From contig JALQUC010000014.1 of NCBI GenBank assembly GCA_023268615.1, forward strand, positions 1 to 39,073: a DNA stretch of 39,073 bases. Reading direction: 5' to 3'. The translations under genes were made by a program, and so were the position numbers. Position 1 is the first letter of the stretch. Every line of letters starts with the position of its first letter. Below are positions 11,576 to 14,539 of this stretch, in pieces. The notes under the pieces are model-generated. The model saw only the letters and a list, made by a program, of their open reading frames with translations. It was not told the DNA's origin and searched no databases. Origin of the DNA: Candidatus Altimarinota bacterium. GTDB taxonomy: Bacteria; Patescibacteriota; Gracilibacteria; BD1-5; JAGOOR01.

Positions 11576-14539
11576 ATGTACAACCATAGAGAAATCGAAT
11601 CTAAATGGCAAAAATATTGGTCAGAACGAGATACTTTTGCATGTGTCAATCCTGAGCTCGAGAATAGTCACAAACCAAAATTCTACGCTCTCGACATGTT
11701 CCCCTATCCGAGTGGAGCAGGCCTCCATGTCGGTCATCCAAAGTGATATACCGCAACAGATATCATCGCTCGCTACAAACACGCGAAGTGACACCATGTC
11801 CTCCATCCCATGGGCTGGGATGCATTTGGACTACCCGCAGAGAATTATGCTATAAAAACTGGTACACATCCAGCGATTACAACAGCACAAAATATTGATA
11901 AATTTCGTGAACAACTCAAAAAATTCGGATTTTCATTTGATTGGAATCGCGAGATAGATACGACGAGTCCTGAATACTACAAATGGTCTCAGTGGATTTT
12001 CTTGAAACTCTTCGAAGCAGGTCTTGCTTATGAGAGCGATAAGCCGATAAATTTCTGTCCGAGCTGTAAAACAGGCCTCGCAAACGAAGAAGTCGTGGAT
12101 GGAAAATGTGAACGCTGTGGAACTCCTGTCGAGAAGAAAGCAATTCGTCAGTGGATACTTGCGATTACCAAATATGCTGACAGACTCCTCTCCGATATTG
12201 ATCGTCTCGATTGGCCAGAGGGCATCAAGGAACAACAGAGAAACTGGATTGGAAAAAGTGAAGGATGTCAGTTCTTTTTCAAATGAATTGATTGCCCTGA
12301 TGTAGAGGTATTTACCACGAGAATTGATACTGTGTTTAGTGGTGCTTTTGTCGTCATCGCACCAGACCACCCAAGAGTTCAAGAATATATCCATTCTGAC
12401 CACAAAAAAGAATGTGACAAATACATCAAAAAAACTCAGAAAGAAACCGATATAGAGCGAACCAATCTTGATAAACAAAAGACCGGAGTATTTACTGGGT
12501 CGTATGTGACCAATCCTTTCAATGATGAAAAACTTCCTGTTTGGATTGGTGATTTTGTCTTATGAAACTATGGAACGGGTGCGGTATTTGGTGATGCACA
12601 TGATGAGCGCGACTTTGTTTTTGCACAGAATTATGGAATACCTATGAAACAAAGTATTGCACCATATATAACCATGTCTGGTATAAATTCTCCAAAAACT
12701 GATGTTGCTCAACATAAACGAAAAACTGTTAATGCTATTATAGAGTTTGAGGGTAAATTTATGATATTAAAGGAGCCTAAAAATTATAGATTACTTGGAT
12801 GAGGTGTTGAGCCATGAGAAGAAACTATCGATACAATTAGAAGAGAGATAACCGAAGAGGCTTGATATTATGATTTTTCTAAAATAGAAATTGTTTTTTG
12901 ATCTCATGTATTCGCAAATGGTTTTCATTTAAAGAAAGAACACAATGTCGAAGCCAATGATACGCCATGTTTTCATGTTATTCTCAAAAGCTTAAAACAA
13001 AAAAACATAAATCCCGCAGAACTTGAGTGGCACAGTATTGAGTGGTTTGAAAAAAGTGATGTTGCAAAACTTCTCTCCTTTGAACAGCATATATATCAGT
13101 GGGGGCAATTTATTAAACCTTCTGCTTATACGGATGATTGAATACTTATAAATTCGGGAGAATTTGATGGGCTCACTTCTGTGGAGGCCCGCAAAGTCCT
13201 CACAGAAAAAGCAGAAAAAGAATGATTCGGCAAAAAAATAACGAACTACAAACTCCGTGATTGGATTTTCTCTCGTCAGAGATACTGGGGCGAGCCTATT
13301 CCACTGATTCATATTCGGGATGAAGATAAGGAATCCCTCCCAACAAAGAAAAATGATGATTGCTGGATCGATGGAGATACTTTAAAAAAATGAGATACAC
13401 TTCTCGGCAAACTCACACGATGAATCTCCGGCTGGCTCCTGCCAGATTGGGATCTCCCTCTGAAACTCCCAGAAGTAGAAAAATATGAACCATCAGGTGA
13501 CGGAGAATCCCCTCTTGCGACGATTCCTGAATGGGTCAATGTCCACCTGGGAAAGAATCTGACAGGAAAACGAGAAACAAATACCATGCCACAGTGGGCT
13601 GGATCATGCTGGTACTATCTCCGCTTTATGGATCCGACAAATTCAGAAAAAATAGTTGATCCAGAAGTAGTCAAATACTGGGGCGAGGTAGATAGCTATA
13701 TCGGTGGTGCAGAGCATGCAGTCCTCCATCTCCTCTATGCGCGTTTTTGGCATAAATTTCTCTATGATGTAGGAGTAGTTCCGAGTGATGAACCATTTTT
13801 CCGACTCAGAAATGTCGGTCTCATTCTCTGACCAGATGGAAATAAAATGAGTAAATCAAAATGAAATGTCATCAATCCAGATGAAGTCATCGATGAATAT
13901 GGTGCTGATACTCTCCGTCTGTATGAGATGAGTATGGCTGATTTTTCTGATGTAGCTCCTTGGAATACCAAGGCTATTGTTGGGAGCTACAGACTCCTCG
14001 AAAAAATTTATAGACTTTTCATCACTGGTACAGCAGCTCCAGAATATCAATCATGGATAGCAAAAGATGATCTCTCTGCCATAAAAACCATGCACAAAAC
14101 AATTAAAAAAGTAAGCGAAGATATCGAGAATATGAAATTTAATACCGCTATTGCTGCTATCAATATCATGGTCAATGAAGGTATCCCCGCTGACCCAGAA
14201 AATGCACATGAGTGGAAATCAGTCCTCGTCCGCCTCCTCCAACCATTTGCTCCACATATGGCAGAAGAATGCTGGTCAATCCTCGGAAATGAAGAATCTA
14301 TTTACTCAACAGAATGGCCTGAGCATATCCCTGCTATGACTATCGATGATGAAGTACAGATAGCGATTCAGATAAATGGAAAACTCCGAGGCACTTATGC
14401 ATTTATGCGAGGCGTGACAGCCGAAGAAGTCCGAATGACTGTAGAAAATAAACCAGAAATAGCTAAGTGGTTAGAAGGTGCTGAGGTTATCAAAGAAATA
14501 TTTATACCAAATAAGATTCTTAATATTGTTGTAAAATAA
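11576..14539 (+). CDS. leuS: Leucyl-tRNA synthetase with internal Nudix domain insertion
   Basis: [35 protein letters not shown] zinc motif, editing-domain [44 protein letters not shown]; one frame of 987 aa when UGA=Gly. Confidence 0.96.
12661..13128 (+). other. Nudix domain inserted in LeuRS between editing-domain GTGAV/ERDF segment and the LRDW segment
   Basis: [28 protein letters not shown](G)GVEP(G)[15 protein letters not shown](G)YYDF matches Nudix box Gx5Ex7REUxEExGU; box at 12800-12868. Confidence 0.9.

Follow-up and report, generated by a model that had tools for sequence, protein, structure and literature searches.

A leucyl-tRNA synthetase gene with an internal Nudix domain

The window analysed here, that is, the whole stretch of 39,073 nucleotides from a Candidatus Altimarinota genome, carries at positions 11576..14539 of the forward strand a leuS gene, which encodes a leucyl-tRNA synthetase (LeuRS) of 987 aa with an internal Nudix domain. 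In the source genome TGA is read as glycine, and translation with table 25 gives leuS as a single open frame containing 14 TGA glycine codons, four of them inside the insert. The genome holds one LeuRS copy and seven other Nudix matches. The TIGR00396 model (leuS_bact) scored 956 bits on the product, above the cut-off of 548 for a bacterial LeuRS, and Pfam analysis revealed the editing domain (PF13603, aa 222-371), the class I core and the anticodon-binding domain. The HIGH-type motif HVGH (aa 51-54) is encoded at 11726..11737 (+) and the KMSKS motif (aa 757-761) at 13844..13858 (+). The part of the CP1 editing domain that precedes the insert (aa 222-361; 12239..12658, +) includes the editing motifs TTRIDT (aa 247-252) and HDERD (aa 342-346), with the editing residues T252 and D346 in place. 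The AF2 model of the whole protein (pLDDT 91.4, pTM 0.83) was aligned by Foldseek to E. coli LeuRS with a TM-score of 0.85 by target length, indicating that the synthetase fold is retained. Elsewhere in the window, a 227-aa ORF at 6193-6876 (-) has a GC content of 0.26 in comparison with ~0.41 around it and gave no Pfam match, and a 437-aa protein at 15776-17089 (+) contains a match to the fibrinogen C-terminal domain (E 4.5e-6).

Alignment with the Thermus LeuRS breaks off at aa 361 and picks up again at aa 516, which indicates that the insert takes the place of an editing-domain loop of ~13 residues. These boundaries and the Pfam Nudix match place the cassette at about aa 362-514 (12659..13117, +); the span of 12661-13128 proposed in an initial annotation of this DNA was right to within ~11 bases. 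The protein then resumes as LeuRS (YTDDGILINSG...) and, according to Pfam and the Thermus alignment, continues through the catalytic core and the anticodon-binding domain (13118..14536, +). The initial annotation had recognised a Nudix domain embedded in CP1, and a Pfam scan of the 987-aa translation bore this out, with a significant PF00293 match at aa 387-508 (E 2.3e-9, 37.8 bits, cut-off 21.1) inside the single frame. The Nudix box (aa 409-431; 12800..12868, +) matches GX5EX7REUXEEXGU exactly and contains the metal-binding glutamates E424, E427 and E428 (12845..12859, +), followed by the X-loop aromatic residue F450 and lysine K454 (12923..12937, +). An AF2 model of the insert by itself (pLDDT 95.2) has a Nudix fold, the best Foldseek match reaching 1.5e-9.

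Comparison of 122 such inserts, with a mean identity of ~30%, revealed that the first and last glycines of the box are invariant (122/122) and that the three key glutamates are present in 121, 119 and 120 inserts (98-99%), whereas the strict box pattern was matched by 109. The X-loop lysine equivalent to K454 was found in 113. Box glutamates were also invariant in 52 full-length LeuRS sharing 37-58% identity with the window protein. A fixed loop slot of CP1 houses a complete Nudix domain whose catalytic residues are conserved and, to judge from the residues retained, Nudix catalysis is under selection across the LeuRS inserts. The suggestion in the initial annotation that the enzyme is active, made from the intact catalytic residues, accordingly reads as likely on these sequences. 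Damaged boxes are few: the one in L078 is clearly dead, and those of L015 and some others are altered. Such cases are what would be expected if the domain were a structural or tRNA-binding appendage devoid of catalysis, the structural version of which was also raised in the initial annotation; a purely structural role is nevertheless very unlikely, since the glutamates are nearly invariant among sequences that have otherwise diverged to ~30% identity.

Several trivial explanations were discarded. The significant PF00293 score and the conservation in 122 inserts argue against a box arising by chance, and no Hint or homing-endonuclease Pfam match was found in the window LeuRS at E values up to 1, so that an intein or homing element was rejected. 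An assembly chimera is excluded in practice by the occurrence of the same architecture in ~50 other Patescibacteria genomes and in a same-genus genome, where the Nudix domain is a different one. Finally, LeuRS with Nudix conserve HIGH, KMSKS and the editing residues about as well as LeuRS without it, which indicates that editing was not given up in favour of the insert.

Distribution and placement of the insert

At the order level, the window and 13 of the 32 other genomes searched hold a Nudix domain at the CP1 slot. A phylum-level search with an insert HMM detected Nudix within a LeuRS frame in ~50 of 380 other Patescibacteria genomes, nearly all of these inserts lying between core columns ~372 and ~384. 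The survey of other Patescibacteria called for in the initial annotation thus showed the fusion to be common there, and a search of named genomes, based on 12 closer sequences, extended it to many patescibacterial lineages, to many MAGs of Bacilli and Clostridia (gut lineages included in both), to MAGs of Erysipelotrichaceae, and to one Pacearchaeota MAG within DPANN. In this archaeal MAG (L198) the LeuRS that contains Nudix is of bacterial type and was probably acquired from bacteria, misbinning of the contig being possible. The long-frame matches examined in the phylum search were all class Ia synthetases (Leu ~50, Val 1, Ile 1), with one Nudix each in the ValRS (L159) and the IleRS (L165).

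In the class-level set, 25 of 26 Nudix inserts were located at core column ~372, whereas 34 of 38 other inserts were found elsewhere (25/4 against 1/34; Fisher 1.4e-12, a value without phylogenetic correction, from a set in which some loci were picked for their long frames). Nudix domains outside the slot were observed at another CP1 site (L142, L185 and L192) and near column 454 (L077). Some LeuRS contain several Nudix domains at different slots, namely three in L178 (Taylorbacteria) and two in L136, and one Bacillales MAG (G538) has two LeuRS genes, L199 and L291, with Nudix in both.

Enzymes other than Nudix also occur in other loops of LeuRS. Alpha/beta hydrolases of the Ser_hydrolase type form the largest non-Nudix cluster, along with Ham1, HAD and nucleotidyltransferase domains; PDDEXK_3, DUF559 and IS200-like Y1 transposase domains were found as further inserts, and ASCH-like domains were recognised by eye. 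Two cases accumulate such domains: a 1795-aa LeuRS (L164:2177-7561) has HAD, Ham1, Nudix and nucleotidyltransferase domains, and a 1544-aa IleRS (L165:1141-5772) has Ser_hydrolase, Nudix and histidine-phosphatase (His_Phos) domains. In most of L098-L103, which belong to the same class (family f7), an IS200-like Y1 transposase domain is present in frame near core column 247. On either side of the DUF559 domain in the LeuRS of L105, L019 and L107 lie coding sequences that resemble palindromes (SPLHGEG / TEWRGVGGE), an arrangement that suggests a mobile element.

Repeated exchange of the cassette at the CP1 slot

The presence of Nudix is patchy across the phylogeny of the synthetase. In a tree built from the cores of 207 LeuRS genes (a quick FastTree-type tree, with sequences mostly from MAGs and loci partly chosen by their Nudix content), the Nudix label required at least 40 changes, 30 of these changes being forced by well-supported branches, in comparison with a mean of 69 after shuffling. 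Similarity of inserts and similarity of cores were weakly correlated (Mantel r 0.30). These data led us to reject a single ancient insertion followed by vertical inheritance. The idea that unrelated free Nudix genes were recruited time and again was mostly rejected as well, because the inserts cluster together, with 9 changes versus 30 in shuffles; exceptions are L057, with two Nudix domains of different type, and the long branches L077, L078, L090 and L163, whose position is unsure.

Individual pairs of genes gave the same picture. In the only same-genus genome available, the LeuRS segments are 83-88% identical to those of the window, whereas the insert is 36% identical (the leuS locus of this genome includes a stretch of N, and some of the core sequence is absent); the closest relative of that insert is the one in L015, from another family (52% vs 37%). 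The LeuRS cores of L105 and L024 share 84% identity and their Nudix domains 27%, whereas the Nudix domain of L105 is 51-52% identical to those found in LeuRS that match at 40-49% in the core, among them that of Pacearchaeota. The converse was also observed, since distant Bacillota LeuRS (46-57% core identity) carry Nudix domains that are 70-77% identical. An empty slot was found in L286 beside L212, in which Nudix stands instead of ~9 residues. Altogether, the data show that this slot has seen recurrent gain, loss and exchange of cassettes of one Nudix clade, both between lineages and across phyla. The initial annotation was right in describing a real, embedded and intact Nudix domain, and missed both this exchange and the cassettes at other slots.

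The window insert itself has a GC3 of 0.22 in comparison with 0.35 in the remainder of leuS, which places it outside the range of other leuS stretches (GC3 0.36, s.d. 0.03, minimum 0.29), as expected of a foreign segment. The presence of four TGA glycine codons within it suggests a donor that also reads TGA as glycine. A search for direct or inverted repeats at the edges of this insert gave weak AT-rich matches alone. The exchange probably proceeds by homologous recombination through conserved LeuRS flanks, such as HDERDFEFAKKY before the insert.

Candidate functions and comparison with known systems

The Nudix domain also exists outside active synthetases. In three Clostridia/Bacilli MAGs, relic genes (L196:2126-3028, L202:2192-3046 and L203:2204-3046) encode a free protein of ~285 aa that corresponds to a CP1 remnant with a full Nudix domain in the usual place, PF13603 being still detectable in L203 (E 2.8e-6). 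The editing motif is lost and Nudix is intact in all three, and their genomes hold a separate LeuRS without Nudix. In addition, L194 and L170 are free-standing Nudix proteins of the insert clade. The existence of these relics and free-standing members indicates that the Nudix domain can be retained without aminoacylation and is, in this sense, autonomous. We favour, with moderate confidence, the reading that the insert is an active nucleoside-polyphosphate pyrophosphohydrolase that works autonomously while tethered to LeuRS. The slot may be used because a compact domain is tolerated there, where it would leave aminoacylation and editing unharmed. On the other hand, the inserts are strongly restricted to class Ia synthetases and to a single slot, a hint of some coupling to LeuRS for which an autonomous tethered enzyme would not account.

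Regarding the reaction, the cassette would be a Mg-dependent pyrophosphohydrolase of the MutT/RppH/Ap4A-hydrolase branch. The nearest solved folds of the insert model are MutT-type proteins, NudI and Ap4A hydrolase (3i7u among them), and the best PDB match of the insert profile is 1f3y. The window insert reached no curated NCBIfam Nudix family cut-off, the RppH equivalog scoring 19.9 of 118 bits on the window LeuRS, and since the nearest equivalogs score so far below their cut-offs, any choice of substrate among ApnA, a damaged or non-canonical NTP, another NDP-X or a nucleotide toxin would be a guess. Aminoacyl-AMP, proposed in the initial annotation, is without support, the nearest relatives being those of the MutT / NudI / Ap4A-hydrolase / RppH group.

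Could the domain clear by-products of LeuRS itself, hydrolysing the Ap4A or other ApnN that the enzyme makes from aminoacyl-adenylate and ATP? The restriction of the examined carriers to class Ia synthetases is consistent with this idea, as is the kinship with Ap4A hydrolases (1f3y, 3i7u) and RppH, matched weakly in 28 of 36 inserts. An X-loop tyrosine is a determinant of Ap4A hydrolase (PMC5389931). At the corresponding place, 17-18 residues after the box, 110 of 122 inserts have Y or F, with F450 of the window at +19. However, the Leu, Ile and Val enzymes are reported to be weak producers of Ap4A, and the Phe, Lys and His enzymes the strong ones (PMC10148737), and no insert was found in PheRS, LysRS or HisRS in the phylum search. 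Patchy presence and rapid exchange would also be odd for a housekeeping role, and we regard this explanation as possible but rather doubtful.

The same fast turnover and patchy distribution would fit a guard role, in which the cassette destroys nucleotide-type LeuRS poisons of competitors, such as agrocin-84-like adenylate mimics, and the swapping of cassettes is the outcome of an arms race. LeuRS is a target of nucleotide antibiotics, the TM84-LeuRS complex (3zgz) and agnB2 LeuRS (5ah5) being among the structural matches, and the unrelated enzymes described above in LeuRS loops (Ser_hydrolase, Ham1, HAD, nucleotidyltransferase), together with His_Phos in one IleRS, are also in line with this role. 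Still, we know of no toxin or producer to which this reading would apply here, no clear match to a defence family was obtained beyond a weak one to the candidate PDC-S07 model, and a conserved clade at one slot can be explained without an arms race; we consider the guard role unlikely. Less probable again, and in our opinion very unlikely, is an RppH-like action on the 5'-polyphosphate or capped ends of the tRNA held by LeuRS. During editing the acceptor end of the tRNA is dealt with by CP1, and this contact, as well as RppH and YtkD being the commonest weak family matches, would be in line with such processing, whereas the RppH scores far under the cut-off and the free-standing relics lacking a tRNA-charging partner domain are at odds with it.

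In a more speculative reading, the CP1 loop may serve as a docking site for interchangeable enzyme cassettes that pass between Patescibacteria, Bacillota and DPANN archaea and shield the synthetase, or the cell, against poisons or by-products of nucleotide type. If so, a detoxification or resistance platform would be built into an essential enzyme. A question that becomes testable is which nucleotide needs destroying next to LeuRS. Essential synthetases are generally regarded as conservative in their evolution; here an essential host gene is inherited while an enzyme in a fixed slot is swapped horizontally, a way for very small genomes to gain functions without extra genes. The more than 100 tolerated insertions also form a natural collection usable for protein engineering. 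No paper on a LeuRS-Nudix fusion, nor on the LeuRS of Patescibacteria, was found in the literature searched (titles and abstracts, with many subscription journals outside it). The architecture may be recorded in domain databases; the exchange of enzyme cassettes at a fixed slot within an essential gene seems previously undescribed.

The fusion belongs to a known theme, that of extra domains in class Ia synthetases. The IleRS with an N-acetyltransferase domain (NF040702) is likewise a class Ia synthetase plus an added enzyme, although both the synthetase and the enzyme differ from those of LeuRS-Nudix. In an account of domain-insertion architectures, the LeuRS editing domain is listed as an inserted module of synthetases (PMC13114784); it is treated there solely as an insert, not as a host, and Nudix is not mentioned. 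The LeuRS inserts share with the MutT / NudI / RppH / asymmetric Ap4A hydrolase group the fold, the box, the metal glutamates and apparently the aromatic X-loop residue, and their aromatic 17-19 residues past the box together with the conserved lysine resembles the X-loop of human Ap4A hydrolase, but they form a distinct clade that resides mostly inside LeuRS and has conserved Lys K454 and Trp W490. With bacterial LeuRS (TIGR00396; Thermus 1h3n, E. coli 5omw) the window protein has in common the core, CP1, HIGH, KMSKS and the editing Thr/Asp, and it differs from the Thermus enzyme in holding a 153-aa Nudix domain where the latter has a short loop.
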